Of a stretch of DNA of 46,024 nt, positions 14,657 to 46,024 are shown piece by piece. The notes under the pieces are model-generated. The model was not told where the DNA came from. It worked only from the letters and a program-made list of their open reading frames with translations, and did no database searches. The DNA comes from Myxococcales bacterium (GTDB lineage Bacteria > Myxococcota > Kuafuiibacteriia > Kuafuiibacteriales > Kuafuiibacteriaceae). Made by a program: the position numbers and the translations under genes. Location: assembly GCA_019634385.1 (NCBI GenBank), contig JAHQVK010000013.1:1-46024 (forward strand), in the 5' to 3' direction. The first letter of the stretch is position 1, and the number at the start of each line of letters is the position of its first letter.

Positions 14657-16309
14657 TCATGGTCCATCCTCCTCGTCGAGAGCGACCATCGGATAGGCAT
14701 CAACAAACGCCACCAACGGATCCGTTTCTCGCCAGGGACGGAGCTTGTTCATAATGCGGATAAACCACGGATGCGTACCCATACGCTGTTGCCAAGCAAC
14801 AACCTTAGGCAAGCCGAGTCGGTCTAGACCAGCAAACCACTCGCTTTCCACGCCCGAAAACTGCCGAACAAACGGGAAGATTGCCGCGTCGTAAAACCCT
14901 GGCTTTTCCCCGTCCAAAAACGAGCACCCCTCAAGCAGTACTTCCAACTCCGCCAAGCATCCTACCGCTTCGCCGCGAGCACCCGAGGTGTCTTCATCCG
15001 GATACCGAGTCGGATACTTGTACCGATCCAAAGCCCGCTTAAATGGCCCATCAATCGTTGAAAGCATCAACGACAACGCATCTGAAGGATGACAACTCAT
15101 CGCCTCCGGCCGTTGGGTTCGAACCCAATGCATGATATCCAGGCTTTCTTTTAGCACTTCGCCGGAAGACAATAGGAGGACAGGCACCGTGGTGGCACCA
15201 AGCTCCAACATTGCTGCTGGTTTGTGACGAAGTTCAATCTCGCGGACTTCCGGATTATATCGCCCAGCGGCAAGAGCCATTCGTGCTCGCATCGCATAAG
15301 GACACCGACGGAAACTGTACAATACACCGTCGAGGGGCTGAACGAGCGGAGCGATGCCCATAATCTGCAGTTCTGGAGACAGCTTAGCCCCCAGGTGAGA
15401 TTCTCCACGTTCTTCAGCCGCAATCATTTGCCGAGCACGCTCCCGCCGACGCTCACGATCCGATTCGGTGGTATGCGGATAGCAGCGAGCGCAACTAACC
15501 CCATGCTCGTACTCCGCGGCTTGCTCATCACCGGGTACCAGCGGCTCCAAACACCCGAAACACATCTGGTGCGAACCCGGTTTAAGCTCCGCATCCACCG
15601 ACACTCGGTGATCGAACACAAAACACTCCCCCCGCCATTTTGACGCTTCAGAAGCAGTTGTCTCCAAATACCTAAGAATACCCCCTTCCAGGTGGTAGAC
15701 TTCCTCAAATCCCTCACGAAGCATGAAAGAACTAGCTTTCTCGCATCGGATACCACCGGTGCAAAACATCGCGACTTTCTTGTTTTTTTGGGGATGAAGA
15801 TGGGCCGTCACCCAATCTGGAAAATCTCGAAACGTCTGAAGGCCAGGATCAATCGCCCCTTCGAACGAGCCTAGCCTCGTTTCGTATTCATTTCGGGTAT
15901 CGATCACTAGCACTTCCGGATCATCAAGAAGTCGGTTGAAAGCTTCCGGTCCTACGTAGGTACCCACTCGCTTAAGCGGGTTGATCTCCTGGTCCCCCAT
16001 AGTGACAATCTCTTGCTTCAGCCTCACCTTCATGCGGTAAAACGGCAAATAGTCACAAAGTGACCGCTTTTCCTCCAGCATCTCAAGACCAGGCTGACTG
16101 CGAAGGAATGCAAGGACCGCGTTGATCCCGTCAGCCGATCCCGCAATCGTACCGTTGACACCCTCATGGGCGAGAAGCAGCGTCCCGAGAATGCCTTGTT
16201 GCTCGCACAGTAGGCGGAGAGGCGAACGTAGGTCTTGATAATGGGGAAGATCAGCAAACTTGTAGAGTGCAGCTACCACGTAGCTCCCCCGCGATACCGG
16301 CACCGGCAT
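14657..16309 (-). CDS. trhO: TrhO-type tRNA hydroxylase/rhodanese fused to a glutathione S-transferase-like domain
   Basis: The N-terminal 330 or so residues match TrhO (YceA/UPF0176), which makes 5-hydroxyuridine at position 34 of some tRNAs. They comprise an acylphosphatase-like domain (about 10-105), a rhodanese domain with the active Cys in CTGGIRCEKAS (about residue 183) and a Cys-rich segment CFGC...CARC (about 250-285). E. coli TrhO is 350 residues; this protein has 550. The extra C-terminus is GST-like: a thioredoxin-fold half with FRRCPYAMRARMAL (about 335-348) and TTVPVLLL, then an all-helical half with FYDAAIFPFVRQF. The ATG has GGGAG about 4 bases upstream. There is no frameshift at the junction, so this is one fused protein. 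Confidence 0.88.
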   Translation of the reverse strand: MPVPVSRGSYVVAALYKFADLPHYQDLRSPLRLLCEQQGILGTLLLAHEGVNGTIAGSADGINAVLAFLRSQPGLEMLEEKRSLCDYLPFYRMKVRLKQEIVTMGDQEINPLKRVGTYVGPEAFNRLLDDPEVLVIDTRNEYETRLGSFEGAIDPGLQTFRDFPDWVTAHLHPQKNKKVAMFCTGGIRCEKASSFMLREGFEEVYHLEGGILRYLETTASEASKWRGECFVFDHRVSVDAELKPGSHQMCFGCLEPLVPGDEQAAEYEHGVSCARCYPHTTESDRERRRERARQMIAAEERGESHLGAKLSPELQIMGIAPLVQPLDGVLYSFRRCPYAMRARMALAAGRYNPEVREIELRHKPAAMLELGATTVPVLLLSSGEVLKESLDIMHWVRTQRPEAMSCHPSDALSLMLSTIDGPFKRALDRYKYPTRYPDEDTSGARGEAVGCLAELEVLLEGCSFLDGEKPGFYDAAIFPFVRQFSGVESEWFAGLDRLGLPKVVAWQQRMGTHPWFIRIMNKLRPWRETDPLVAFVDAYPMVALDEEDGP

Positions 16310-26059: not shown

Positions 26060-27322
26060 ATGGTCGACGAATCAACCCATTTAGTTGAACTCATACATGG
26101 TTCGTCCATCTTAAAAAAACGGCTCTGCTACCCTCGCTTTGTTAGCGATGAACTCACAATCCTGATTCTCGACAGCAACTACCACTTGGTAGCGGAAGTT
26201 CGGAATGCCTTTGCTCGCCGCGGTCACAAGGTAATTTCCATCCCTGTGGCCAAAGATAGCGGAGCAATGGTCAACGCCACGCTTCGGGCCCTGGCGGAAG
26301 CACAACCAGACTTTCTTTTCACAGTAAACTTTCTTGGATTCGATCAGGAGGGGATCCTTGGGACTATTCTGGAAACACTACAAGTGCCCGTCGCAGTGTG
26401 GCTGGTGGACTCCCCCTTATTCATCCTCCGCGGTCGACCGGTGCCTGCCCCTTCTACAAGTCAGATATTTTGCTGGGAAAAAGCCTACATACCTGCGCTC
26501 CAAAAAAGCTGTGAATGCCACTACCTCCCTCTCGCCACCGAGCCGTCAGTCTTGGGCGGTCAACCGTCAACCGATGCTCTCGACGTGAGCTTCGTCGGTG
26601 ATAGTGGTCATCGTTCTCAGCAAAAATGGAAACGCCGATTGGCCCCTGAAGATGAGTCAATTGTAGAGGATCTTGCCAAAACATTTACCAAAGGGCCCCA
26701 CCACCGCTTGAGGGAAGCCCTATGCAATCCATCCATCTTGAGCGAACTACTGAGCGATCCTTCTGCGGTAGATCGATGGGCAGCGGCCACCTGGCGAGCC
26801 AACTCTCGGCAGCGAGCAACTTTTATCCGTGCACTCCAGTCATTGCCTTTGAGAGTCTATGGAGATGAAGGGTGGAGAATTATGCTCCCCAGCGCCCCAG
26901 TAGAACCGGGTCCAACTTATGGACCCCAGCTGGCTAAGGTGTACCAAAGCTCAGCCGTGAATCTAAACATCACGAGCTTGCAAATGCCCTCCGGGCTGAA
27001 TCAAAGGATCTTCGATGTGCCTGCCGCTGGCGGTTTTCTACTCACCGACGGCCAAGAAGATCTCTACGACTTTTTCACGGAGACTGACGTTGTCACCTGG
27101 TCAACTCTGGAAGAGGCCCAAGATAAAGCACTCTTCTACTTACAACGACCGAATCTACGGCGAAAGATCATCCACAAGTGTCAGCAAACCATCATTTCCG
27201 CTCACACCTACAGTCACCGCGTTCAAGAGTTACTATCGGTATTAAGAAAGCGGTTTGGCCCCACCCGGTTCAGCCCGGTTCCCTCCGGAACGCCCGCAAG
27301 TGACGATGCACGTACGTCCTAA
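26060..27322 (+). CDS. CgeB-like glycosyltransferase (DUF3880 plus GT1-like)
   Basis: The 420-residue protein has a Rossmann-like N-terminal half (LTILILDSNYHLVAEVRNAF near 32, DFLFTVNF near 85, VAVWLVDSPLF near 110) matching DUF3880. A C-terminal half follows with VSFVGDSGHR, LPLRVYGDEGWR, VYQSSAVNLNI and NQRIFDVPAAGGFLLTD. The last is the acceptor/nucleotide-sugar segment of CgeB/SpmB-type glycosyltransferases that decorate surface or spore layers. The absence of membrane segments fits a cytosolic transferase. The donor and acceptor are unknown. It has no glycosyltransferase or polysaccharide neighbours. Its 3' end overlaps the convergent GYF gene by 53 bp. Confidence 0.82.
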   Translation: MVDESTHLVELIHGSSILKKRLCYPRFVSDELTILILDSNYHLVAEVRNAFARRGHKVISIPVAKDSGAMVNATLRALAEAQPDFLFTVNFLGFDQEGILGTILETLQVPVAVWLVDSPLFILRGRPVPAPSTSQIFCWEKAYIPALQKSCECHYLPLATEPSVLGGQPSTDALDVSFVGDSGHRSQQKWKRRLAPEDESIVEDLAKTFTKGPHHRLREALCNPSILSELLSDPSAVDRWAAATWRANSRQRATFIRALQSLPLRVYGDEGWRIMLPSAPVEPGPTYGPQLAKVYQSSAVNLNITSLQMPSGLNQRIFDVPAAGGFLLTDGQEDLYDFFTETDVVTWSTLEEAQDKALFYLQRPNLRRKIIHKCQQTIISAHTYSHRVQELLSVLRKRFGPTRFSPVPSGTPASDDARTS

Positions 27323-28745
27323 CCGTCCCTCCTCGACCGATGCGAACCTTTACCTTGGAAGCAGAAGCCACCGCGGGAAAAGTCCATCCCTTGGATCGAC
27401 GTCGAACACATTGGGCCACGGATCGCGAAACCCCCCTGATGGAAGTGTTAGTCACCTCTCCCGGGCCAGATACCAAAAGACCGATCTCTACCCCTTCAGG
27501 TAGGGAATCGTTGCGTCGGTCCACTTGTGCGCACCGAACTAAAGACCGAAAATGACTCGCAACAACCCGACCAGCCGCTTCATCCGACAGGGTTGATGGG
27601 AACGGATAAGGCGCAAATCGATGGACCGTTTGGGCTTTCTTAGCCGCACCCTTGCGCCAACCATCCTTCGTCTTCATGGCCCGTGCTCTTACCGTCTTTG
27701 GTACGGGCACGGCCCTCGCGGACCGATGACCATTCAGCCAAGAAAAATCATCTGCTCCTCGCGATAGGCCCGGATTAGCCGGAGCTACGGAAACAGATGA
27801 AGCAGGGGGCCTTTGGAACGAGATAGCAACTCCCGCGGACTTCTTGGTCAACCTCTTCTTCGGCACCACCAGCGGGGTCACAGCCGATGATGTATTCCCC
27901 TCCGATGACGGCGCAACATGCGGCAGTGGGGTCATGGGGCCGGATCGAATATCCTCCGGCTGCATCCATTTTTCTTTAGCCGGAGGATTCGACGGACGAA
28001 CCGTAAGTTTGTCCCAAAGCTCGGTCGCCAAATAGCTAGCGATAAACACCGCACCACCGATGATAAGCGCTGGGCGAAGTATCCCTCGAGATGGCAACCG
28101 GAGCGGATGAGGTTCTTCGTAAGCTTCGTTCTCCACCGATTCCGCCGGCTCTTCATCAACGGACATCACCATCGTAGACGACTGCATCAACACCGTTTGG
28201 ACCATCGAAGGGTCCTCTTCCTCCAGTGAGGCATGGTCTCCCAGGCCCACTGCGGCTAGGAGGCCAGCGCGGACATAAGCCACATCCGACGATAATGAGG
28301 CTCTCCACACCGATAGATTCATTTCTGGAATCACATGCATCGAAAAACCGGGACTCGAGGCATCCACATCAGGGAGCTCAGTTTCCCGGCTTATATGATC
28401 ACGCAAAGAGGTTGCTGGAACCTCATCCAGAAGATCCCGCGACAATCTGACATCAGTGGTGTGTTGCTGGTAGGCATTCTCAAGCAATGGGACCACCCCA
28501 AGCGTCGGCCTCGGAGGAAGTTCTCTATGTAAATCGGACCGAGAATACACCGTGATCCATTGCTCAAAACCCGGCCGCCAGACGTAGTGCGAAGCGGTTA
28601 GTCGTCCCTGTCGAGCCATGCTCACTAGCTCATCATACGCATATGGTCCGTCCGTCTTACCGCTTCGCGCGATGTACCACCGACATCGGAGATCCATGCT
28701 CGTAGGTCCATCTTGGGCGATCCAAGCATGCTTTCCCTGCTGCAT
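27270..28745 (-). CDS. GYF-domain membrane protein with AgmX/PglI-like C-terminal tail
   Basis: A GYF_2/DUF4339 domain at about residues 20-75 (RWYIARSGKTDGPYAYDELV, then YVWRPGFEQWI) is followed by an acidic linker. One membrane helix (about 228-248, LIIGGAVFIASYLA), a Pro/Ser-rich periplasmic linker and a TonB-like C-terminal domain (about 395-480, with RCAQVDRR, VEIGLLVSGPGEV and CVRRRSKGWTFP) complete it. The latter resembles the AgmX/PglI tail found in myxobacterial motility and envelope proteins, with its characteristic Cys pair. So GYF is cytoplasmic and the tail periplasmic; it could carry a signal or force across the membrane. No Shine-Dalgarno is evident; ATG 28697 is an alternative start. 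Confidence 0.8.
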   Translation of the reverse strand: MQQGKHAWIAQDGPTSMDLRCRWYIARSGKTDGPYAYDELVSMARQGRLTASHYVWRPGFEQWITVYSRSDLHRELPPRPTLGVVPLLENAYQQHTTDVRLSRDLLDEVPATSLRDHISRETELPDVDASSPGFSMHVIPEMNLSVWRASLSSDVAYVRAGLLAAVGLGDHASLEEEDPSMVQTVLMQSSTMVMSVDEEPAESVENEAYEEPHPLRLPSRGILRPALIIGGAVFIASYLATELWDKLTVRPSNPPAKEKWMQPEDIRSGPMTPLPHVAPSSEGNTSSAVTPLVVPKKRLTKKSAGVAISFQRPPASSVSVAPANPGLSRGADDFSWLNGHRSARAVPVPKTVRARAMKTKDGWRKGAAKKAQTVHRFAPYPFPSTLSDEAAGRVVASHFRSLVRCAQVDRRNDSLPEGVEIGLLVSGPGEVTNTSIRGVSRSVAQCVRRRSKGWTFPAVASASKVKVRIGRGGTVRTYVHRHLRAFRREPG

Positions 28746-28968
28746 ATTCGTTCGCGTTCGGAAGCCTAGCCATGAAGCGTAGGACCGATCGCAGCCAATC
28801 CCGCGAACTCTTGGCAGGGAACCAAGTTTGCGGTTGCCGCCCCTCTCAAGCTCTATTGCATGGTTCTCCTAGGACTTGGACAGCGAGAGGCGAGACAGGC
28901 ACGTGCCGGTCTGCTAACAGCCCATCCGGCGACAGGTGAAGCTTCACCCGTCTGCGAAAGGTGCGCGG

Positions 28969-31900
28969 ATGAGATCCACTCCTGAAACTCATAAAACGCG
29001 GGCCGTACCGCGTACATGGTCTCCACTTACAACCCTTGCTGGACGACGTATTATGCTCCTGGGCAGTACCGGTTTCCTCGCAAAGGTAATGCTTTCTATG
29101 CTACTCGAGCGGTTTGGCCCAGAGCGCATCTATTGCGTAATACGAGGTACCCGCTCTAAGTCCCCCCGGGATCGTCTATTTGCTGAGGTGCTTTCATCAG
29201 AGATGATGAGCCCTCTTCGTGAGCGTTTTGGAGCGACCTTCGAAGCGGTCGTCAACAAGCAGGTTGAACCCCTGGGTGGGGATCTGAGCCAACCTAATAT
29301 GGGTCTGGACGAAACGACCCTCCATCAATTGCGCGGCAAGGTCGACGTCATCATCAATTCCGCGGGGCTGGTAAACTTCAATCCCCAGCTCGAGCAAGCG
29401 ATTATCTCCAACACGCTTGGCGCACTGACTGTAGCTGAGCTGGCCCGCGAGCTCGGTGCCAAATTGGTCCACGTCAGTACATGCTACGTTGCTGGTGCAC
29501 GATCTGGGCGGATCCGCGAGGACACACCCGTGGTCGGTTACTTTCCGCTACAAGCAGAGATGCCCGGAGTCCAATTTGACTGGCGTCGGGAACTTAATGA
29601 TGTTCACCGCATCATCGAGCAAGTCAAAGCTCGTACCGACGATGCAGCTCTAGAGGTATCACACCGTATGGAAGCCCTGCGTCGCCTCAAGGTAGAGGGA
29701 CGCGAACCCCATAAACGGACACTTCGGGCTGCGATTGCCAATCAGCGACGCCGCTGGGTCACTGAAGAGCAGATACGTCTGGGTGTCGAACGGGCTAAGC
29801 AGTGGGGTTGGACCAATATATATACCTACTCCAAAGCACTGGGAGAACAGGCCGTAGCCTCTACTGAGGGGCTAGACTGGAGCATCATTCGACCCGCCAT
29901 TGTTGAATCGGCCCTTCACTATCCGTTCCCTGGTTGGAACGAAGGAATGAACACCACCGCCCCGCTCGCCTATCTAGGCCTCAACGGCCAAGTAACCTTC
30001 CCTGGCAACAACAAACTTGTCCTGGATGTTGTCCCGGTAGATGCGGTCGCCTCAACAACTTTGGCCGCTGCCGCCGCCGTCCTCGCTGGCCAAACCGATA
30101 AGGTCTACCAAGTTGCCGCTGGCGACGTCAATCCCTGCTCCATGGCGCGAGCGGTGACCCTCGTTGGTGTATATCGTCGTCGCAAGACAAAATCTGAGAT
30201 GAATGAGGGGGAGATTTCCCGCTGGCACGGCGAACTTAAACTAAGACAAGAACCTCATCCCATCTCCCGGCGAGCCTACGAAAACCTTTCCACCCCAGCT
30301 TTGCTGCACTGGATAGAAAAAGCCCGGAAAGCAGTCGATAGTCTTGAGCCGGATCGATATGGTTTCCTCAGCCGGACCGTGGTCCGGGCACAAAAAAGGA
30401 CCAAAGAAGTCGAAGAACAACTAACCAAAGTTAGAGATGTCTTTGATCTCTTCATGCCATTCATCTGGGAAAATCAGTATATATTTAATACTTCAAACAC
30501 CCGAAGCCTCTTCGAGAGCATGAACGAGTCAGACCGGGCTCTGCTCCCTTACGAAGTTGAACGCACCGATTGGAGGCATTATTGGCTAGATGTACATCTA
30601 CCCGGTCTAGAGAAATGGGTCTTCCCCAAGCTAGATATCGATGGCCCCAAGCGAGTAACTATTCCTCGAGATTACAAAGATCTTGCAGAATTATTTGACG
30701 TTCGAACCAGGGAGAACGGCCGCCGAATAGCCTACCATATGGTGCAGAAAGGAGAAGACGCGACCGCATATACTTTCCGAGACGTGCGTAAGGCATCATT
30801 TTATGCCTCGAACTTACTCGAAAAAATGGGCATGAAAGACGGCGACCGGGTGCTACTCATTTCGGAAGGTCGGCCGGAGTGGGGTATGAGCTACTTCGGT
30901 ATTGTCCTTGGCGGCGGCATCGCCGTGCCCGTAGATGTAGATCTATCGCTTTCGGAAGTAGACAATATCGCCAAGGCCGCAGGAGCCAACCTCGCAATCT
31001 CTTCCCCCAAACATGCGGCACGTCTTGCAACCGTCAACGGAGAGTCTTATCTCCAACAGGTACGGGTTATCAAATTTGACGAACTCTTTGGCAACGCTCA
31101 CCAACTGGATGAAACCGAAGACCTCCGACCTAAGAAGCGTCGCCCAGAAGACCCAGCGTCGGTCATTTTTACATCAGGCACCACCGGCCGTCCCAAGGGT
31201 GTAGTCCTCAGCCATCAAAATTTTGCTGCCCTAACTGCTCGATTGTCCGCACTATTTGAGCTCAACCACCACGACGCTATGCTCTCGGTGCTGCCGCCGC
31301 ACCATACCTTTGAGTTTTCTGCCGGGCTACTTATGCCTCTCGCCAAGGGGTCTGCAGTAGCTTATCTCGAAGAACGCACTCCAGAGCTGGTCTCCAAAGC
31401 TTTTGATGAGCTCTCGGTCACCGCCATGATCGGGGTACCGGCAGTAATTGAAAGCCTTCACCGCCGAATTCAGGGAGAATTAGATCGTCTATTCCCACCC
31501 GCACGAATCATCATCCGGCAGCTCATTCGGTTGAACGAGCTTCTGCGCGATCGGACCGGGCTAAATCTAGGACAGATAGTATTCCGACCGGTTCATACCC
31601 AGTTTGGAGGCCAACTCCGCTACCTCATCAGCGGTGCCGCTCCACTCCGGCCGGACATCTATCGCGAGCTCCGCGGCTTAGGATTTGGAATTCATGAGGG
31701 TTATGGCCTCACGGAAGCATCACCGGTTCTCACCGTTGGTTGGCCACACCGTACAACACCAGCCGGTAGTGTTGGATGGCCGCTTCCTGGTATTGAGGTC
31801 CGCATTCTTGATCCCGATGACCGGGGCGTGGGCGAAGTGATCGCGCGTGGGCCTACGATCATGAAAGGCTACTTATCCGCGCCCGAGGCAACTAAAGAAG

Positions 31901-33402
31901 TCCTACGAAATGGTTGGCTCCATACCGGTGACCAAGGGCGCATGGATAAGGATGGACACCTCTTTATCGTCGGGAGAGAAAAAGATACGATTATAGATTC
32001 TTCGGGAAAGAATGTTTATCCTGATGAAATTGAGGAACTCTATGCAGACACCCCCCTCATTGAAGAACTATCAGTAGTTGGTATACCGACTGATAGTGGC
32101 ACCGGGGAGCGGGTCGCGTGCCTCGTGGTTCCCAATTACTCTGTTGAGATTCAGGGGCAAAAACTATCTAGGGAAAAGGTACACGAGGAACTCCAACGCC
32201 ATTTCAAAGATGTTAGCGCTCGACTACCATTCACCCGTAGGATCAAAGTCCTTCATATCTCCGAGCATCAGCTAGCTCGTACATCCACCCGCAAGGTAAA
32301 GCGCAACAGCGTCCGCCAAGAATTGATGCGTTTGGAGCAAGCTCGAAGTACATCTCAGGAAAACTTTAGCCCCGCCACAAAAGATTCAGGGATTGAAGCC
32401 TGGGTCCTAAAAATATTAGCAACTATTACCCGTCGATCGGCGAAAACGATCACCCTTGGGGCACGACTGGTTGATGACTTAGGATTCGACTCTCTAATGC
32501 AGCTAGAGCTTTTCAACACCCTAGAGGCTGAACATCCCCGAGCTCGTATTTCCGCAGATGAAATTGCGGAGGTGACCACGGTGGCGGAGATTGTCGCACT
32601 TGCTCAGCGAGACAAAGCCCCTCCCACCCTAAGCGAAAACATCCGCACCGCAACTGAACCCGAGGAGCCTTGGTCCATCCCAGCCCCATTAGTAACCATA
32701 GGCAAGACGGTACTAGGCATCGCCAACCAACTAGCATACCGAACACTCTTTGATATTCACGTCGAGGGCAAAGGCAACATTCCTGCAAATCGAAACTTCC
32801 TTGTCGCCTCAAACCACTCCAGTCACCTGGATATGGGTTTGGTTAAAGAGGCACTTGGCGTATTTGGCACCAGGATGCGGACCGTAGCTGCCAAAGATTA
32901 TTTTTTCGACGATCCCGTCAGAGGCATCTATTTTCGAAACTTTAGTGACTTGGTGCCAATGGACCGGCATGGTTCCCTCAGAAAGTCACTTCGACTTGCT
33001 TCACAAGCTATACACCAAGGCGATACTTTGCTTATCTTTCCGGAAGGCACACGATCACGGGACGGTAAGATGAGGCCTTTTAGACCAACTATCGGCTGGT
33101 TATGCCTCCACCAAAACGTTGATGTATTACCGATCTGGCTTGGCGGAACCCATGAGTCTCTTCCTGTCGGCGCTAACCTCCCGAAAACAGGAACCCTAGA
33201 GGTTCGCATTGGTGAACCGGTTTGTAGCTACAAAATGCGGGAAGCAACCCGCTCGATGAGTCGCTCCCAGGCGTATCGGTTGGTAACCAAAGAAGTCGAA
33301 CGCCGAGTTCGTACTCTTGGAGGCCTGCCCCTGGACGAAGATGAAACCGAGGATGTGTCCAAATCCAATTCATCCGAACAAGAGGAGCGCTCGACACCAT
33401 GA
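28969..33402 (+). CDS. elbD: ElbD-like multidomain enzyme: acyl reductase, AMP-ligase, acyl carrier, PlsC acyltransferase
   Basis: This is one 1,477-residue protein with four modules. The N-terminus is a fatty-acyl reductase-type SDR (GSTGFLAK about 32; YSK about 287). An AMP-dependent acyl ligase follows (FTSGTTGRPKG about 733, GYGLTEASP, TGDQGRMDKDG, catalytic-type Lys in STRKVKR). Next are a phosphopantetheine carrier (DLGFDSLMQ, Ser about 1175) and a PlsC acyltransferase (NHSSHLD about 1282, FPEGTRS about 1358). The order matches my memory of ElbD, the myxobacterial ether-lipid enzyme. A likely scheme is activation and loading of a fatty acid, reduction of the thioester, and acylation of a glycerol backbone. 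ATG 28969 has AAAGG upstream; GTG 28936 would add 11 residues. Ether-lipid function is inferred. Confidence 0.85.
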   Translation: MRSTPETHKTRAVPRTWSPLTTLAGRRIMLLGSTGFLAKVMLSMLLERFGPERIYCVIRGTRSKSPRDRLFAEVLSSEMMSPLRERFGATFEAVVNKQVEPLGGDLSQPNMGLDETTLHQLRGKVDVIINSAGLVNFNPQLEQAIISNTLGALTVAELARELGAKLVHVSTCYVAGARSGRIREDTPVVGYFPLQAEMPGVQFDWRRELNDVHRIIEQVKARTDDAALEVSHRMEALRRLKVEGREPHKRTLRAAIANQRRRWVTEEQIRLGVERAKQWGWTNIYTYSKALGEQAVASTEGLDWSIIRPAIVESALHYPFPGWNEGMNTTAPLAYLGLNGQVTFPGNNKLVLDVVPVDAVASTTLAAAAAVLAGQTDKVYQVAAGDVNPCSMARAVTLVGVYRRRKTKSEMNEGEISRWHGELKLRQEPHPISRRAYENLSTPALLHWIEKARKAVDSLEPDRYGFLSRTVVRAQKRTKEVEEQLTKVRDVFDLFMPFIWENQYIFNTSNTRSLFESMNESDRALLPYEVERTDWRHYWLDVHLPGLEKWVFPKLDIDGPKRVTIPRDYKDLAELFDVRTRENGRRIAYHMVQKGEDATAYTFRDVRKASFYASNLLEKMGMKDGDRVLLISEGRPEWGMSYFGIVLGGGIAVPVDVDLSLSEVDNIAKAAGANLAISSPKHAARLATVNGESYLQQVRVIKFDELFGNAHQLDETEDLRPKKRRPEDPASVIFTSGTTGRPKGVVLSHQNFAALTARLSALFELNHHDAMLSVLPPHHTFEFSAGLLMPLAKGSAVAYLEERTPELVSKAFDELSVTAMIGVPAVIESLHRRIQGELDRLFPPARIIIRQLIRLNELLRDRTGLNLGQIVFRPVHTQFGGQLRYLISGAAPLRPDIYRELRGLGFGIHEGYGLTEASPVLTVGWPHRTTPAGSVGWPLPGIEVRILDPDDRGVGEVIARGPTIMKGYLSAPEATKEVLRNGWLHTGDQGRMDKDGHLFIVGREKDTIIDSSGKNVYPDEIEELYADTPLIEELSVVGIPTDSGTGERVACLVVPNYSVEIQGQKLSREKVHEELQRHFKDVSARLPFTRRIKVLHISEHQLARTSTRKVKRNSVRQELMRLEQARSTSQENFSPATKDSGIEAWVLKILATITRRSAKTITLGARLVDDLGFDSLMQLELFNTLEAEHPRARISADEIAEVTTVAEIVALAQRDKAPPTLSENIRTATEPEEPWSIPAPLVTIGKTVLGIANQLAYRTLFDIHVEGKGNIPANRNFLVASNHSSHLDMGLVKEALGVFGTRMRTVAAKDYFFDDPVRGIYFRNFSDLVPMDRHGSLRKSLRLASQAIHQGDTLLIFPEGTRSRDGKMRPFRPTIGWLCLHQNVDVLPIWLGGTHESLPVGANLPKTGTLEVRIGEPVCSYKMREATRSMSRSQAYRLVTKEVERRVRTLGGLPLDEDETEDVSKSNSSEQEERSTP

Positions 33403-34391
33403 AGTTGTTTGTGACCGGTGGCACAGGCTTTTTGGGCCAATGGGTGATCCAATTCGCCCTCGAAGCTGGACATAATGTACGAGCCCTTGTTCGCGATGCC
33501 CATGCCAAATTACCTCCCGGGGTCGAAGCAATTGTTGGTAACCTAAGCAAAGCGGACCAACTCACAGCTGGCATCAACGGCTGCGACGCAGTCATTCACC
33601 TTGCGGGCAAAGTTTCCCGGCATAGGGCCGATAGCACTGCGATGCACGAGGTGCACATTCAAGGTACTCGAACCCTGATCTCCGCCATGACCCAGGTGGG
33701 TGTGCAAAAGCTAGTTATGGCTTCAACCTCTGGTACAATCGGCATACGAGAACACCGCCAACAAGAACCGGTTGATGAGACTTACCAACCCAACTTTGAG
33801 CTCCTTGGGCGGTTTCCATACTACACGTCGAAACTATATCAAGAGCAAGAGGCCCTCCGACGTCATGACGCCGGAGATGTCAAAGTGATAATTCTCAATC
33901 CCTCTTTGCTCCTTGGCCCCGGTGATCAGCGTCTAACCTCCACCACTGATGTCCTAGATATCCTCCAACGCCGAGTGCCCGCGGTCAGTAGTGGAACTAT
34001 GGCCATTGTGGACGTCCGCGACGCAGCCCCAATGTTTGTTCGCGCATTAGCTCAAGGTCGTCCTGGTGATCGATACCTTCTCAACGGGGCCAACATGACC
34101 GTACGCAGTTTTGCTCAGCGGGTAGGGGTCGCGGGGGATGTCGCCGCCCCAACCATAAAACTGGGCAAGACTTGGGCGATTCGGAGCTCAAAATGGATCT
34201 ATGGATTGTACGAGGCTTTCGAGCAAGATCCGCCCTTCGATCCGGTAGCGGTCGAAATGTCCACCCTGCATTGGGATGTCGACGCCACCAAAGCCCATCG
34301 CGAACTCAACTTTGTACCTAGAGATCCTCAGCTAACCATCGAGGCAACCGTTCGCGATCTCGAGGCGCGGGGTCTTTTCCGGCGCACATAA
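33399..34391 (+). CDS. NAD(P)-dependent epimerase/dehydratase (extended SDR)
   Basis: The 330-residue protein is an extended short-chain dehydrogenase: GGTGFLG at the N-terminus binds NAD(P), a DAVIHLAGK strand follows, MASTSGTIG is the catalytic Ser/Thr region and YYTSK holds the Tyr and Lys (about residues 147-151). It resembles hopanoid-associated HpnA-type epimerases and 3-beta-hydroxysteroid dehydrogenase-like reductases, but the substrate cannot be read. Its ATG overlaps the stop of the ElbD-like gene by 4 bp (ATGA), with GAGGAG upstream, so the two are coupled. A role on a keto or hydroxy lipid made by the large enzyme is a reasonable guess. Confidence 0.85.
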   Translation: MKLFVTGGTGFLGQWVIQFALEAGHNVRALVRDAHAKLPPGVEAIVGNLSKADQLTAGINGCDAVIHLAGKVSRHRADSTAMHEVHIQGTRTLISAMTQVGVQKLVMASTSGTIGIREHRQQEPVDETYQPNFELLGRFPYYTSKLYQEQEALRRHDAGDVKVIILNPSLLLGPGDQRLTSTTDVLDILQRRVPAVSSGTMAIVDVRDAAPMFVRALAQGRPGDRYLLNGANMTVRSFAQRVGVAGDVAAPTIKLGKTWAIRSSKWIYGLYEAFEQDPPFDPVAVEMSTLHWDVDATKAHRELNFVPRDPQLTIEATVRDLEARGLFRRT

Positions 34392-39676: not shown

Positions 39677-40504
39677 CTACTCCCAGCCATTGGGCACCAC
39701 AAACCCACGACCACCCATCGACCCCACCATCACTGGCTGCTGCATCTGCTCAACCATAGAAACTACGTCAGCAGCTGCTCTCTCTCGTTCGAACTTATAC
39801 TGGGTGGGACTCAGCCACCATGGCTTCGGAATGACTGCCCACGCCCGAGCTCTGGAAAGCTCAAACCAATCTTGCGATTCGCACCAAAAACCAGTCTCGA
39901 CGGAAGGTTCAACATCATCCGGCAATCGTTCGGACAGAAAATGAGGAAATAGTGCACCCAGGAGTAGAACTTCATGGACGTCGGGGAATGGAAGTTCCTT
40001 GGGCCATGCTTCCCGCTTGAAAGCACGAATCGGTAACGTGAGTTGATGGTTCACCAAACGGTCCAGCTTTAAGTCTAGCCGATCTCGCCGGCGAGGACCT
40101 ATCCAATCGCGCGGTGCTGATGACGGAGTCAGGCTCCCCAAGTAATACTTTATCGCGATCTCGCGATGCACCAAGCGCCCGTTTCTGTCCCGATATAACG
40201 AATCAAGCTCCCCGAGTGTTGTTGCACCACTAACCCGCAATACCCGTTGAACCTCAATAAGCGTACTTACTGAGCCTAGACTATGCATGTGAAGCCATTC
40301 AAAGTACCGCCCCACTGCTCGCGGGACTTCCTGCACCGTGGGGAGGTGCCGCGGCATAACCTCATGTGCCCAATGGGGCTCTACTCGATCATATCCCCTC
40401 TGATGCCAGTAGGTCTCAGTCATTAGCGGAACAGCATTTCGCAACCAACATACGTCTTCGTCTATCCGCTCACGAGGTGCGGGTACAGCAACAGACCTCA
40501 TCAT
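39677..40504 (-). CDS. DUF1853-family protein
   Basis: The 275 residues match DUF1853: YFEWLHMHSL near 68, TLGELDSLYRDRNG near 95, HREIAIKYYLGS near 113 and DRLDLKLDRLVNHQL near 140. The HREIAIKYYLG and DRLDLK blocks recall the PD-(D/E)xK nuclease core as proposed for this family, which would make it a possible nuclease, but that is not proven. There is no signal peptide. It lies 4 bp after the LysR gene and is the last gene of the minus-strand cluster. Usually DUF1853 is a free-standing gene, so its place in this cluster is of note. Confidence 0.82.
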   Translation of the reverse strand: MMRSVAVPAPRERIDEDVCWLRNAVPLMTETYWHQRGYDRVEPHWAHEVMPRHLPTVQEVPRAVGRYFEWLHMHSLGSVSTLIEVQRVLRVSGATTLGELDSLYRDRNGRLVHREIAIKYYLGSLTPSSAPRDWIGPRRRDRLDLKLDRLVNHQLTLPIRAFKREAWPKELPFPDVHEVLLLGALFPHFLSERLPDDVEPSVETGFWCESQDWFELSRARAWAVIPKPWWLSPTQYKFERERAAADVVSMVEQMQQPVMVGSMGGRGFVVPNGWE

Positions 40505-40508
40505 CTAT

Positions 40509-41432
40509 TCACGGGGGGAGAATCGAGTGCTCACCGGGGTCAGAACTCTGTAAGGTTCTACCGTATTCCACCAAGAAGTCCTTCAATCGCATCGCAGCTC
40601 GAGTGCGATGCATATCAACCCGATAAAGCAAGTAGATCACTTCCGGCACACCTGGTAAGTCCGAATGAAGCACGCGGAGCTCACCAGAAGCACCGTGACG
40701 GGCAACACGACGAGGTATTAAGCCCACCCCAAGGCCTTCTTTTACCAGCGCCCTAAGGAGTTGGAGATCTCCACATTCCAGCACTTGATCTGGCAACACC
40801 TCATCGGATGCAAATCTCGCCAATAGATCTGTAACTCGACTCTCTCGCCTACTCACCAAAAGAGGCCCTCTTTTCATCCGGACATATGCCTCAATAACCG
40901 TTCGCGGGGCGGGCTCATGAGCGCATACATAGACCTCAATTCCGTCTCGATATAATGGTACAATAACTAGATCTGGGTGAGGCTCGGGATTCACGACCAA
41001 CCCAAAATCTATAGTCCGCTCCACCACAGCGTTGCGAACCTCATTGTGGGTTCCGCCCCATAGTGAGATACGTACCATGGGCGCTCGCTCCATAAATTTC
41101 CGAAGGAAAGCAGGAAGAAAGTAAGCACCAAGCGCATCATGGCAACCGAGCACAAAATCGCCTACATCCTCGGCTTCTAATCCAGATATCTCTGCTCGGG
41201 CTCTGTCAATGGTAACAAATATATCTTCTGCTGTAGTCCGAAGTACTTTCCCCGCGGCTGTCAACGATATGCCTCGAGCATCTCTATGAAAAAGCGTAGA
41301 CTTTAGCTCCTCTTCAAGGTTCTTGAGCGAAACACTCAATGTTGGTTGCCGGGCATCCAATGCACGAGCTGCCTTGGATATGCTTCCATGCTTGACTACC
41401 GCAAGAAAGTATTCCAGCTGTCGAAGCTCCAT
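40509..41432 (-). CDS. LysR-family transcriptional regulator
   Basis: The 307-residue protein has an N-terminal winged helix-turn-helix, MELRQLEYFLAVVKHGSISK then AARALDARQPTLSVSLKNLE (residues 1-40), and a C-terminal effector-binding domain (about 85-290) with two alpha/beta lobes. LysR proteins bind a small molecule and activate or repress nearby genes; the ligand here is unknown. The ATG at 41432 starts exactly at the usual LysR N-terminus; an ORF start at 41471 would overlap the kinase gene. GGAG lies about 10 bases upstream. Only 4 bp separate it from the kinase stop, unusual for a LysR gene, which is more often divergent from its targets. Confidence 0.9.
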   Translation of the reverse strand: MELRQLEYFLAVVKHGSISKAARALDARQPTLSVSLKNLEEELKSTLFHRDARGISLTAAGKVLRTTAEDIFVTIDRARAEISGLEAEDVGDFVLGCHDALGAYFLPAFLRKFMERAPMVRISLWGGTHNEVRNAVVERTIDFGLVVNPEPHPDLVIVPLYRDGIEVYVCAHEPAPRTVIEAYVRMKRGPLLVSRRESRVTDLLARFASDEVLPDQVLECGDLQLLRALVKEGLGVGLIPRRVARHGASGELRVLHSDLPGVPEVIYLLYRVDMHRTRAAMRLKDFLVEYGRTLQSSDPGEHSILPP

Positions 41433-41436
41433 ACCT

Positions 41437-43518
41437 TTATCGCTCCAAACGAAATCGTAACTCTGCGTCACCGGTATCTGGTCTCGGCCACCTCACCCCG
41501 CTCAGAGTCCTCCTAATGCAGAGCTGACTAGGCCTAGTTGCGCCTGAAAATCGTATTTGACCTAGACGACCGCCAAACCCAATGATCGCCCGGACCGCAA
41601 CCATCTTTTCCTCATCCGCTAAGCACTTTCGGAGATTATCAAGCCTGGACCGCACCCGACGGAGAGTTTGAGCTGGGCTGATGCTACCAATTACTTCCAC
41701 ATCCACTAAACGGATAGTTTGCGACGGCAGCAATCCGGTAGACTCTTTCTGATCCACAATGCTCTCAACATCATCTGTATTTAAGGGCCCGCGCCCCACA
41801 CTCGATGAGCTCCCACTTCTCCCATCAGCTCCAGATGATCCAATCGACTGGGTACCCGAGCTCGCTGTGGAAGAAGTATTTCCGGCCGCTCCAGATGCTC
41901 TGGTTGGCTGAGTGCCGGATCGTACTGTGGAGGAAATACTTCCGTCCGCTCCGGATGACCCCATCGGTTGGATACCCGATGGCGTTGTTGATACCGTATC
42001 TTCTGACGGTCCCGTACTCAGAGCCATAGCCAATGTATCTGTTCTCTCTTCAGTCTCTCGCCGGACTGGATGTTTCACCTTCGGAGCTTGAAGTCGCTCG
42101 GTTTTCGTTGAATTAGTCTTAGTTGCTGAGACTATTGCGTTCCCGGACTTTTTTGTCCCCTCTCTCTTCCGTCCTCTCGGAGGAAAGACAGTCCTCTCCA
42201 GTCGAGCTATTTCATCCCCACCCCTCGCCTTCGAACCTGGATTGTGACCTCTCGTGGTTCGCCCCTCCACCCGGCCAGACTGAGTCGCGGTGGTCGCCAA
42301 GGATAAGAACGGCACTTCTGTACCTACCGATACATTACCTGGAAGGTCATCAGTCTTTGTCTTTTTTTGAAGCAAGCTCCGATCATCCAAAACGGCTTGC
42401 TCATTGAGCAAAGTACCTCCGTTTCTTGAGAAAGCTTCGTCAATATCGAAACTAAACATTGGCTCAGCTTCCAAAGAATGAGAGAAAACCCGGTACCCAG
42501 CTACAAACAATGCTCCCGCAATCATGCTCAAGGCCAACACCCCCAGGAAGCCCCGTAGCCCTTGAGGGACTTTTTTCCCTAGAGTAGATGATTTAAGGAC
42601 TTTAGAAACTGGCGCATCACTAATTTCGGTCGATAACAAGCGAACCACTTGCTCCATAGATTGGGGGCGATCCTCAGGACTCTTGGCCAGACATGCATCT
42701 ATTAGTGAACTAACCGATCTGGGGAGGGTTGGAACAATATCGGCGGCCGATGGGGGTTGCTCCACCGCATGCTTCATCATGACCCCAAGCGGTGTCTCGG
42801 CCTCAAACGGAAGCCTCCCAGAAGCGGCCTCGAACAAGACCACTCCGAAGGCATATACGTCGGATCGAGCGTCCACTTCACCGGTCTGTGCTTGCTCCGG
42901 CGGCATGTATGCTGGCGTACCAAGGAGCAATCCTTCATAAGTCGTTGGATTACTAGTTTGCGCATCCCCCAAAATTTTGGCCAAACCAAAGTCGCAAACC
43001 TTCACTCGGTCAAGAGTCACGACGCCGCCTTCAATAAGAACATTACCGGGTTTTACGTCCCGGTGAATCACATTACATGAATGTGCTTCGCGCAGCGCTT
43101 CGGCCATTCCTAAGGCTAAGGCATATAGCTCTGGAGTAGGCAGCGGACCGCTGCTTTTGAGATGACCCGCCAGGGATGTACCCCGAACCCACTCCATGAC
43201 AAGGTAGGCTCGACCAGAGTGGTCTTCACCAGCAGCAAGGATCCGAACCACATTGGGGTGCACAACCTGCTTAATAGCGCGCACCTCTCGGGCAAACCTT
43301 CGGGAGTGGCGACCACTGCGCTGGTACTCCGGATGCAGGATCTTCACCGCGACTTGCTGCTTTGTTTCTAGGTCCAGTGCCGCGTAGACTGAACCCATGC
43401 CACCTTGCCCCAGCTCTCGCTGGATATGATATCGGTCCGCAACTACTTCCGGTGGAAATCCCTGCGTTGTAGTCACAGTAACCGGATATATATCAGAAAT
43501 GACCGGCGACGCCCACAT
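41437..43518 (-). CDS. Transmembrane Ser/Thr protein kinase with AgmX-like C-terminal tail
   Basis: A Hanks-type kinase domain spans about residues 28-300: ELGQGGMGSVY loop, VAVKIL with the ATP Lys, HRDVKPGN catalytic loop, DFGLAK and the PPEQ activation-segment end. All key residues are present. One membrane helix follows (about 322-345), then a long Ser/Thr/Lys-rich extracytoplasmic linker with three 20-residue repeats and a final domain (about 615-693, with NLRKCLADEE, VRAIIGFGGRLGQIRF and CIRRTLSGVRWP). That domain resembles the AgmX/PglI tail with its Cys pair. The layout suggests sensing or envelope contact by the tail and phosphorylation inside. ATG 43518 overlaps the porin gene by 26 bp; GTG 43476 is possible. 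Confidence 0.85.
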   Translation of the reverse strand: MWASPVISDIYPVTVTTTQGFPPEVVADRYHIQRELGQGGMGSVYAALDLETKQQVAVKILHPEYQRSGRHSRRFAREVRAIKQVVHPNVVRILAAGEDHSGRAYLVMEWVRGTSLAGHLKSSGPLPTPELYALALGMAEALREAHSCNVIHRDVKPGNVLIEGGVVTLDRVKVCDFGLAKILGDAQTSNPTTYEGLLLGTPAYMPPEQAQTGEVDARSDVYAFGVVLFEAASGRLPFEAETPLGVMMKHAVEQPPSAADIVPTLPRSVSSLIDACLAKSPEDRPQSMEQVVRLLSTEISDAPVSKVLKSSTLGKKVPQGLRGFLGVLALSMIAGALFVAGYRVFSHSLEAEPMFSFDIDEAFSRNGGTLLNEQAVLDDRSLLQKKTKTDDLPGNVSVGTEVPFLSLATTATQSGRVEGRTTRGHNPGSKARGGDEIARLERTVFPPRGRKREGTKKSGNAIVSATKTNSTKTERLQAPKVKHPVRRETEERTDTLAMALSTGPSEDTVSTTPSGIQPMGSSGADGSISSTVRSGTQPTRASGAAGNTSSTASSGTQSIGSSGADGRSGSSSSVGRGPLNTDDVESIVDQKESTGLLPSQTIRLVDVEVIGSISPAQTLRRVRSRLDNLRKCLADEEKMVAVRAIIGFGGRLGQIRFSGATRPSQLCIRRTLSGVRWPRPDTGDAELRFRLER
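41812..41991 (-). repeat. 60-bp tandem repeat (three units) in the kinase linker
   Basis: GCTCC(A/G)GATG recurs at 41828, 41888 and 41948, a 60-bp period. The units encode 20 residues each with the pattern STxxSGxQPxxSSGADGxxS, i.e. a flexible Ser/Gly linker between membrane helix and tail. Units differ at several positions, so the array is not newly made. Confidence 0.85.
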
Positions 43519-44746
43519 GAGCTACAACCTCATCCCGAAAATCAGAGAAATCCCAAATTTCCGTGGAAAGCTTGAGCCTTAATGAGCGATGAACAACCAG
43601 GTTTATGCCATTTGTATACCGAAGAACAGCACTTTCACCCCTTAGAGGACTGTTTGTAGCCAAATTACCGATACGGCGAAGTCCGTCCACGCGAGCAAAG
43701 ATCTCCAACCATTCCGAAAAAGGGTATTCCACTTCTGCGAGAAATCCTTGCTTTATAAAAAAATCTTTAGTGCGACCTTGAGTATCAAAACGAAATGCCC
43801 CGGGCTCATCCGGAATCCCAAACTCGGTCCGGCGAAGTAGCACCTCTGCACGCAACACTAACGCGTCCATCTTCAGATGTGTATCTATCCCGAGAATGAG
43901 GTAAGACTGAGTAGCTGCAGGATCATAAAACCCATGAATACCGGATGCACCAGTAGTTAATGTGGTGTAGTTACCAATATTTATTGTCACAGCCAATCGA
44001 CCACCTACCGATGGCTGACTATTGTTGTCGATATAATACAAACTAGGTGATCTACTCTGGACAAAGTCGATATCAAAAGCATCGTTATTCCCTTTTAGAC
44101 CCGAGACCGCGTGAATAGCATAATCAACAGCCATGCGGTCGTTGAACCAGTAGGTCCCATAAACTTCGATGCCATTGTCCACGTAGGGGATAGGAAGGAT
44201 TCCATTATTCCATTCCGCTCGACGAAGCATTCGCCCCATGTCATAGGGGAGAGGCTTAGAGTTAGCGCGATGATTAGCGGGATCATGGCGAAGTGGAAAA
44301 TCGCCAAAACGAGGATTCATTCGTCCAACCCGTACACTCAATTCATCTAATAACCAGAAGTCTACATATGCCATCCCGATTTCAAAACCATGACATCCAT
44401 AGCAGACTTTCACATGAGCTGAGGTCCGGTCCCCAAAGTCAGTTACTAACTTTAATGATAATTCCGTAGTGAACCCATCAAACACAAAATCTCGTGCTGA
44501 ATCGGCATCAAATACATGTAGATAGTCCAATTGAACGGAGCCGGCCATATTGCTTCGCACATCGATCGCCCATGCCCCACCCACACCTACTAGCAGCCCA
44601 ACTATCGTCAGCGCTCCTGTAAAAACCGGTTGCGACGGCAACTTGCCCCACTTATCCCCTGTTGGAGCAGATTTTTTTCCCTTATCCGCCTCACAAGACT
44701 CAGAATCATCCTCCCTACAATTCATATCGAAACCTTTTAGCTCCAT
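43493..44746 (-). CDS. Predicted outer-membrane barrel carrying a CxxCH haem motif
   Basis: The 417-residue protein has a polar N-terminus of about 40 residues, then a signal-like helix (about 43-60, TGALTIVGLLVGVGGAWA). The rest has alternating beta-strand character and ends LRDEVVAHVGVAGHF-style in a terminal Phe, as Bam substrates do. VCYGCHGFE (about residue 115) is a canonical c-type haem motif, unusual inside a barrel. GRMNPRFGDFPLRHDP and SKPLPYDMGRM follow. It lies between cytochrome-like genes and a kinase gene, and overlaps the kinase start by 26 bp. AGGGGG lies about 5 bases before the ATG. Haem attachment is inferred from the motif alone. Confidence 0.75.
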   Translation of the reverse strand: MELKGFDMNCREDDSESCEADKGKKSAPTGDKWGKLPSQPVFTGALTIVGLLVGVGGAWAIDVRSNMAGSVQLDYLHVFDADSARDFVFDGFTTELSLKLVTDFGDRTSAHVKVCYGCHGFEIGMAYVDFWLLDELSVRVGRMNPRFGDFPLRHDPANHRANSKPLPYDMGRMLRRAEWNNGILPIPYVDNGIEVYGTYWFNDRMAVDYAIHAVSGLKGNNDAFDIDFVQSRSPSLYYIDNNSQPSVGGRLAVTINIGNYTTLTTGASGIHGFYDPAATQSYLILGIDTHLKMDALVLRAEVLLRRTEFGIPDEPGAFRFDTQGRTKDFFIKQGFLAEVEYPFSEWLEIFARVDGLRRIGNLATNSPLRGESAVLRYTNGINLVVHRSLRLKLSTEIWDFSDFRDEVVAHVGVAGHF

Positions 44747-44755
44747 GGCAGCCCC

Positions 44756-45172
44756 CTACAACTCATCAATATTTTTGTCCGCAGAGGTGTCATTGCGCCG
44801 TCGCTTCGATCGCTCCTGCGCCGCATAGTATTCGAGAAAAACTAGCACTTGCTTAGCCTCAGTAGCAGATATGCCCGAACCAGGCATTCTCCGCATTCTA
44901 TCCACATAGTTGCGCCAATGAGCAGGATCAGTAATGCCGGACGAGAGTGGACGAGCTAGGGTATGACAACGAGAACATCGCAGCGCGAACAGTCTATAAG
45001 CGCCCCGAACCTCCGGTTCTAGAGCCTCAACACGCTCTTCAGACCACCCTCCCCTTCGTCCTGAAAAACCTGCACACCCCACAGCGAATAGACCAACGCT
45101 GGCCCCAACCATCATGATGGTTAGGCCAAGTATGTATCCCCATACGCCCGACAGATCATATACCCTAGTCAT
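44756..45172 (-). CDS. Small c-type cytochrome, probable lipoprotein
   Basis: The 138-residue protein has a signal/anchor helix (about 8-32) ending FAVGC, a plausible but weak lipobox. One haem-binding CSRCH (about 66-70) and a possible Met ligand in RRMPGSG (about 95-101) follow, the layout of a single-haem cytochrome c domain. The C-terminus is basic then acidic. It would move electrons in the periplasm or at the outer-membrane inner face. ATG 45172 is chosen for AAGGAG 6 bases upstream; TTG 45202 is a poorer start. It overlaps the upstream gene by 8 bp and ends 9 bp before the barrel gene, so it is in the same operon. Confidence 0.85.
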   Translation of the reverse strand: MTRVYDLSGVWGYILGLTIMMVGASVGLFAVGCAGFSGRRGGWSEERVEALEPEVRGAYRLFALRCSRCHTLARPLSSGITDPAHWRNYVDRMRRMPGSGISATEAKQVLVFLEYYAAQERSKRRRNDTSADKNIDEL

Positions 45173-45692
45173 TCTTAGCTCCTTCGGCGATCCAATCCGC
45201 AATCAATTGTCGAGAACGTAGTCCAAGCATAGGCGGGCCATCAAACGGCATCCGACTACCAAATGGAGGATTCGGGCCTAGCTTTTGAAGCAAATAGCTC
45301 TCGCACGGGAGACCTTCTATGACAATATTCTCTCTGGAGTTATTGCCACCCTGCCGAAGCTGCTCATAGCTCGAAAGATCCAAACCACCAATCTCTATTC
45401 CTATAGGATCCACTTCATCAGGGAAGTGACAGGAGCAGTTAACAACCCCACTCTTTCCTTCGAAAATAGACAGAATATCAGCTCTAAATGCAACATCCTT
45501 TGAAGGATCACTATCTTCATTCACACATCTCGTCGCCACATTGTCACCCAGCTCTGGATCACACGCGACCGAGACTACAAAGGCTATGATGAACCCAACA
45601 CTTCGTGTACAGGTAGTCATTTCGAGTGGAAATGATGAACTTCTCCGTACTTTTCCGGCAAACTGGTCTGTTTTCTGCGTTGACTCCTTCAT
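45165..45692 (-). CDS. Cytochrome-like exported protein with CxCH motif
   Basis: The 175-residue protein has a membrane/signal helix (about 32-44) ending SVACDPE, a possible lipoprotein site. The rest resembles planctomycete-type cytochrome c domains (ADILSIF near 70, GLDLSSYEQLRQG, SRMPFDGPPML, IADWIAEGAKN). Where the family has CxxCH this protein reads NCSCH: the first Cys is shifted or replaced, leaving one residue between the Cys pair. It may bind haem through one Cys, bind another metal, or be a derived non-haem protein. AAGGAG lies 9 bases before the ATG; an internal ATG at residue 25 would give a shorter signal peptide but has no ribosome site. Confidence 0.75.
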   Translation of the reverse strand: MKESTQKTDQFAGKVRRSSSFPLEMTTCTRSVGFIIAFVVSVACDPELGDNVATRCVNEDSDPSKDVAFRADILSIFEGKSGVVNCSCHFPDEVDPIGIEIGGLDLSSYEQLRQGGNNSRENIVIEGLPCESYLLQKLGPNPPFGSRMPFDGPPMLGLRSRQLIADWIAEGAKND

Positions 45693-45695
45693 GGT

Positions 45696-46024
45696 TTATA
45701 GCTCCTTGGGACATAATTCCCGGCGCTCGGTGGGCCTAAAACCCAAGACCTCCCCCCCCTCATCACTCGAAATTCCATCTTCTGTAATAGATGTAGGTGA
45801 GGGTTGATTACCACCATCAATGGAAATTAACGCGGGATCGGTGCGAGCTATGACTATGGAACATAGTGGTAACCAATCCTTTGGAAACACTTGATGGGTG
45901 GAAGTATATTCAGCATCCCCGTCTAAATCTAGTAACTCTATATCCTCATCAAGAATATAAGGCTGATTTATACGTTGGAAGACATAAGCTCGCGTTTCGG
46001 GGAACAGACGAACATCATCCGGCA
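45696..46024 (-). CDS. C-terminal part of a truncated gene, unknown function
   Basis: The minus-strand frame ending in TAA at 45696 stays open to the window edge (about 108 codons), so the start lies outside. Visible sequence includes PDDVRLFPETRAYVFQRINQ, DEDIELLDLDGDAEY and LCSIVIARTDPALISIDGG, acidic with some beta character. I do not recognise a family. Its last codons hold the AAGGAG ribosome site of the next gene, so it is the upstream member of the cytochrome-barrel operon. Confidence 0.7.
   Translation of the reverse strand, partial: PDDVRLFPETRAYVFQRINQPYILDEDIELLDLDGDAEYTSTHQVFPKDWLPLCSIVIARTDPALISIDGGNQPSPTSITEDGISSDEGGEVLGFRPTERRELCPKEL

Follow-up and report, generated by a model that had tools for sequence, protein, structure and literature searches.

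What might an outer-membrane barrel do that carries a CxxCH haem-binding motif within its own chain and is encoded among small cytochromes and a protein kinase? The question is raised by a locus at the end of the 46,024-nucleotide contig JAHQVK010000013.1 of a Myxococcales bacterium (GenBank assembly GCA_019634385.1), which was analysed as a whole and is referred to here as the window; the source genome measures 5.39 Mb in 257 contigs and is 93% complete. Seven open reading frames (ORFs), all on the minus strand, span the region from the contig edge to 39677, with neighboring genes overlapping by up to 38 bases or lying at most 9 bases apart, so the seven-gene, same-direction cluster of the initial annotation is confirmed. 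In our judgement, the balance of the sequence evidence tips towards a compact porin-cytochrome electron conduit of new architecture in the outer membrane, whose core would be formed by a lipoprotein, a CxCH protein, a monohaem cytochrome and the barrel.

The barrel (43493–44746, minus strand) and the two small cytochrome-like proteins of the locus reach no cut-off in the Pfam and NCBIfam libraries. A profile of five barrel sequences found no match by sequence among solved structures, and a plasmid collection yielded only a weak match, to a porin of Candidatus Manganitrophus without CxxCH. Among 195 genomes of the window's phylum (the set used for all genome-scale searches), the same profile returned strong homologues with E-values below 1e-70 in three families: the window's own (f1), f13, which includes Anaeromyxobacter-like genomes, and f8. 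The comparison set comprises 28 close homologues from these families, 27 of full length and one cut by a contig end. Each has a single CxxCH, and residues C115, C118, H119 and G120 (the CYGCH codons, residues 115–119, lie at 44390–44404, minus strand) are invariant in 28/28, as is M170 (44237–44239, minus strand). Since the motif is kept throughout, its occurrence by chance is excluded, and the barrel with CxxCH that the initial annotation pointed out is real: its close homologues, far from usually lacking the motif, all have it. In nearly all homologues the mature barrel has no cysteines beyond the two of the motif, and in most the whole chain has none; where there are additional ones, they belong mainly to the signal peptide or an N-terminal extension, and three barrels have one further cysteine. 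The roughly 40 residues ahead of the signal peptide in the window barrel may reflect a mis-called start.

Five more distant porins have neither CxxCH nor Met170. A branch supported at 99/98 separates the CxxCH barrels from these porins, the outgroup branches being long, and a single gain of the motif in this clade is likely from the phylogeny. With the motif, Met170 and the neighboring genes as indirect evidence, it is quite probable that the barrel motif carries a haem. The 16-strand porin would then itself be a c-type cytochrome, with the haem joined to C115 and C118 and with H119 as an axial ligand; the second axial ligand, in the sixth coordination position, would probably be Met170 of the constriction loop L3, which is a better candidate than His159 because the latter is not invariant (Phe in seven homologues, Tyr in one).

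The likely position of such a haem is suggested by an AlphaFold2 model built from 27 sequences (mean predicted local distance difference test score, pLDDT, 79; predicted template modelling score, pTM, 0.75), which has 16 strands. The motif comes after two strands (63–78 and 91–104) and the larger part of a third, and is flanked by strands 108–117 and 120–133; L3 follows at 144–189. The short β3-β4 hairpin thereby holds the motif at its tip (residues 118–119, in loop L2), and because the usual porin topology has both termini periplasmic, this tip and L3 are both predicted to be extracellular, so that the haem would lie near the extracellular rim of the barrel. The alternating pattern of the alignment suggests that K113 and C115 point into the lumen. 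Foldseek matches of the model are 16-strand porins of the OmpT, chitoporin, OprP and OmpF types (OprP with an E-value of 2e-11). The predicted fold and the constriction loop are shared with OprO/OprP (PF07396, Porin_O_P) and with OmpF-type porins; the window barrel scores 12.4 bits against PF07396, below the cut-off of 20.9, and differs from the ordinary porins compared in having the CxxCH and Met170.

This resemblance to solute porins agrees with an alternative, by which the motif would be a disulfide, a thiol-redox site or a metal (Zn or Cu) site in a solute porin, and the cytochromes would belong to another pathway and be merely co-transcribed. The hairpin location fits it as well, since cytochromes c usually hold their CxxCH in a helical setting. 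Porins of 16 strands with engineered metal sites also occur among the fold matches (PDB 9j9n, 9j9p). However, the exact CxxCHG spacing in 28/28 homologues, found beside CxxCH cytochromes in all lineages, and the association with OmcA/MtrC decahaem cytochromes described below are not what it would lead one to expect, and we regard it as unlikely.

The nearest known kind are Cyc2 and Cyc572 of Fe(II) oxidisers, which likewise combine a 16-strand porin and a single CxxCH in one polypeptide of the outer membrane and have periplasmic c-type cytochrome partners. In these proteins, however, the CxxCH is N-terminal, before β1, and in Cyc2 it is thought to be a periplasmic plug (PMC8406198, PMC10654088), whereas in the window barrel β3 and β4 enclose it, on the side predicted to be extracellular. 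Cyc2 is further defined by the motif AxPxFAR[Q/K][T/Y] upstream of the CxxCH (PMC8406198); the pattern P.FAR[QK][TY] matches none of the barrel homologues compared. Membership in Cyc2 is rejected on the position of the motif and the missing FAR motif. A Cyc2-like activity is a separate matter: the barrel could act as an oxidase or reductase of soluble metal, with Fe(II) or another small substrate entering the pore and reacting at the barrel haem, an explanation that overlaps with a conduit and differs from it in the reactant, here a small solute and not a solid or a surface cytochrome. The strand number and the single haem motif shared with Cyc2 agree with this, as do the f8 dihaem loci and the source genome, where the barrel is paired with small cytochromes only and no decahaem protein is encoded at the locus; the lack of the FAR motif, a haem site located at the barrel end opposite to that used in Cyc2 (PMC8406198) and the decahaem partners in relatives, which there point to a solid or bulky partner, make it somewhat unlikely.

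In the electron conduit that we favor, the small monohaem c-type cytochrome (44756–45202, minus strand; CSRCH motif at 44963–44977, minus strand) would carry electrons from the periplasm to the barrel haem or back. It has a lipobox in the three same-family genomes. A profile search with it matches 25 genomes, 23 of which also have a CxxCH barrel, and the two genes share a locus in almost every case; the remaining two are G006, which has a porin without CxxCH, and G029. Seen from the barrel, every homologue has a small c-type cytochrome next to it or a short distance away, as far as contig ends permit. The two genes adjoin each other in nearly all loci, with a kinase gene between them in G176 (locus L058) and a distance of about 2 kb in G172; in G105 the match to the small cytochrome is found on a different contig, and the barrel has a dihaem protein as its neighbor, and in seven f8 loci the partners are dihaem proteins of 183–214 amino acids. 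Gene calls in relatives of high GC content came from a simple script, which missed one cytochrome (in G077) that was found by search. Cytochrome neighbors are thus kept in related genomes, and for the barrel and its cytochromes the case of an accidental unit, considered in the initial annotation, does not apply.

The next gene upstream encodes a PSCyt1-like lipoprotein (45165–45692, minus strand), which would add to the chain on either face of the membrane. Its profile matches homologues with CX4CH or CxxCH (comparison probability 97.8, E-value 6.8e-13), and it keeps the Met148 and the C-terminal pattern of that family, but has CSCH instead (residues 86–89; 45426–45437, minus strand). The three f1 genomes all have CSCH or CGCH, encoded by different codons, and a sequencing error is therefore not the cause. 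The profile homology extends to PSCyt1 (PF07635, planctomycete-type cytochrome c), against which the window protein scores 13.5 bits and the copy in the same-family genome G002 20.5 bits, both under the cut-off of 22, with CxCH in place of CxxCH. Judging from the sequence, either a haem is bound through CxCH or it has been lost; in the literature searched, no paper links 'CXCH' with haem terms.

The gene at the contig edge (45696–46022, minus strand) is a 5'-open fragment. The contig end overlaps exactly by 141 bases with another contig of the same genome, C209, at whose start a search of the genome with the G002 homologue finds the N-terminal part of the gene (C209:754–2). Joined across the two contigs, it encodes a 313-amino-acid lipoprotein with the lipobox IPIGC in the C209 part. 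It is DUF7482-like: the homologue in G003 scores just over the cut-off for this domain and that in G002 just under, and both lie directly upstream of the CxCH gene. In the genomes searched, it occurs only in the window genome (G000), G002 and G003. A long divergent ORF lies upstream on the opposite strand, and the lipoprotein gene is therefore the first of the unit. A relationship to EB_dh, as a divergent member, was considered and rejected (profile comparison probability 0.4).

More haem proteins are found around the barrel in relatives. Most f13 loci and part of the f8 loci also encode a CX4CH lipoprotein of the PSCyt1-like type, often together with an EB_dh haem lipoprotein (PF09459, E-value 3.4e-23), and an OmcA/MtrC decahaem cytochrome (TIGR03507; E-value 1.2e-83 for the G016 copy) is encoded within or next to many f13 loci, in some cases on the other strand. 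That the same barrel sits with OmcA/MtrC decahaem cytochromes in these relatives fits an outer-membrane electron conduit. The EB_dh and OmcA/MtrC proteins would lengthen the chain there, and in Anaeromyxobacter-like genomes with OmcA/MtrC the electrons may flow outward, in metal or humic reduction. While the genes, their conservation, the clade, the predicted fold and the neighbors are established, we infer haem attachment, its lumenal or surface position, electron transfer and the direction of that transfer.

Two of the relatives' loci are of interest in their own right. Contig C117 of G077 (L052) has two diverged haem barrel clusters, each with its own cytochrome and decahaem protein. The G006 cluster (L069, 1984–13658 on G006:C27) encodes pentahaem and tetrahaem cytochromes, molybdopterin and NrfD subunits, a Porin_O_P barrel that lacks CxxCH and passes the PF07396 cut-off, a canonical PSCyt1 lipoprotein (CGACH) that also passes its cut-off, an MtrC-like decahaem protein and the small cytochrome; it is possibly a complete quinol-to-surface chain.

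With MtrAB, MtoAB, PioAB and the Geobacter Pcc systems, the locus shares an outer-membrane barrel and c-type cytochromes in one operon, and in relatives OmcA/MtrC decahaem cytochromes nearby; the layout of Geobacter-type Pcc, a barrel with periplasmic and outer-membrane multihaem cytochromes, resembles that of the relatives' loci in outline. MtrB-type barrels, however, are 26-stranded and enclose a multihaem cytochrome, whereas the window barrel has 16, its own CxxCH and a mono- or dihaem partner. The MtrA-type periplasmic decahaem partner is not in the window operon, where the partner has one CxxCH; the constant partners in relatives have one or two. The MtrB/PioB profile (PF11854) matches neither the barrel nor anything else in the source genome, where at 93% completeness absence is not certain. 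A conduit of the MtrAB type is rejected on the number of strands and the barrel family, and of the simplified outer-membrane electron conduit proposed in the initial annotation, the conduit is supported by the conserved CxxCH, the cytochromes and the OmcA/MtrC neighbors, while its MtrAB-type assignment fails on an OprP/OmpF-like barrel of 16 predicted strands. In Anaeromyxobacter, the described Pcc (Adeh_3392, 12–14 haems) is a two-gene unit in a cluster separate from the haem-barrel locus (PMC4245776).

Downstream of the barrel lies a transmembrane serine/threonine kinase (41437–43518, minus strand; Pfam kinase match 1.7e-51) with an extracytoplasmic linker and an AgmX-like C-terminal domain, a tail that has no match in the libraries. 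(A similar stretch, by eye, forms the C-terminus of a GYF_2 domain protein elsewhere in the window, at 27270–28745, minus strand.) The C-terminal domain and architecture recur in the kinase directly downstream of the G003 barrel; in both G000 and G003 the barrel gene is followed by a kinase gene, G002 and G003 have a further kinase gene ahead of the lipoprotein gene, and each of the three barrel-bearing genomes of the family has a kinase adjacent. Most f13 loci have genes for SpoIIE (with HAMP), HATPase and STAS after the cytochrome; in L046, L048 and L051, all Anaeromyxobacter-like, these partner-switching genes, SpoIIE being the phosphatase, lie directly downstream of barrel and cytochrome. 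One could therefore read the locus as a redox or ligand sensor, in which barrel and cytochromes report the extracellular redox state to the kinase (to SpoIIE, HATPase and STAS in relatives) and so control gene expression, and a gene for serine/threonine phosphorylation is indeed near the barrel in most loci. Yet the type of signalling shifts with lineage while barrel and cytochrome stay constant, the kinase is on the opposite strand in six f8 loci, and surface decahaem cytochromes argue for transfer on the scale of respiration; because kinases are common (69 matches in the source genome), a single adjacency is weak evidence. A sensor of this kind is very unlikely in our view, and the kinase probably regulates the conduit or is co-regulated with it.

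The LysR-type regulator (40509–41471, minus strand; HTH_1 1e-21, LysR_substrate 7e-31) and the DUF1853 protein (39677–40504, minus strand; Pfam match 7.9e-39) have no counterparts near the barrels of the other genomes examined, and DUF1853 has no match in the same-family genomes G001, G002 and G003. Their inclusion in a conserved unit is rejected on this basis; they are likely incidental neighbors. Of the relay through kinase and regulator suggested in the initial annotation, there remains a phospho-signalling gene that is usually nearby, but of a type that varies by lineage, whereas LysR and DUF1853 appear private to this genome.

Several points weigh against a conduit. A covalent haem on an outward hairpin would need to pass the β-barrel assembly machinery (BAM), for which we know of no precedent, and the distance from the rim haem to the small cytochrome may not permit fast transfer, except where the latter moves into the barrel. 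The AlphaFold2 model holds no haem. In the related cluster of G006, cytochromes and a porin are retained, yet this porin lacks the CxxCH, so the association of porins with cytochromes extends beyond those with the motif. Finally, no OmcA/MtrC match was found in the source genome, although its incompleteness (93%) leaves this absence uncertain; the genome does have cytochrome c assembly proteins and one haem-copper oxidase. We propose only tentatively a third class of conduit, in which the porin haem would be held in an outward β-hairpin together with the constriction loop, membrane insertion would follow haem attachment, OmcA/MtrC would be coupled in some lineages, and a CxCH haem-lipoprotein would be the partner in the window's family. 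The family is not described in the literature searched, a search that is incomplete and so no proof of absence.

Elsewhere in the window, a 550-amino-acid ORF (14657–16309, minus strand) fuses a UPF0176/rhodanese (TrhO-like) protein to glutathione S-transferase-like N and C domains, and a 1488-amino-acid ORF (28936–33402, plus strand) joins a fatty acyl reductase (NAD_binding_4, Sterile) with AMP-binding, acyl carrier and acyltransferase parts; an epimerase-like gene (33399–34391) follows and overlaps it. A 775-amino-acid patatin-like phospholipase (3874–6201, plus strand) has a C-terminal part that by eye appears barrel-like, with a terminal Phe, and is possibly a patatin-barrel protein.

The known conduits follow one of two designs: a wide barrel that surrounds a multihaem cytochrome, or a porin extended by an N-terminal haem domain. 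If our reading is correct, a porin with an internal, outer-side haem would be a separate solution, present in uncharacterised lineages and in Anaeromyxobacter-like genomes; Anaeromyxobacter is a genus of known metal reducers. It would raise the question of how BAM inserts a haem-loaded hairpin. CxxCHG together with Met170 would provide a specific marker for a conduit protein that Pfam and NCBIfam models miss, and the OmcA/MtrC cytochromes clustered with the haem barrel would gain a candidate trans-membrane partner.

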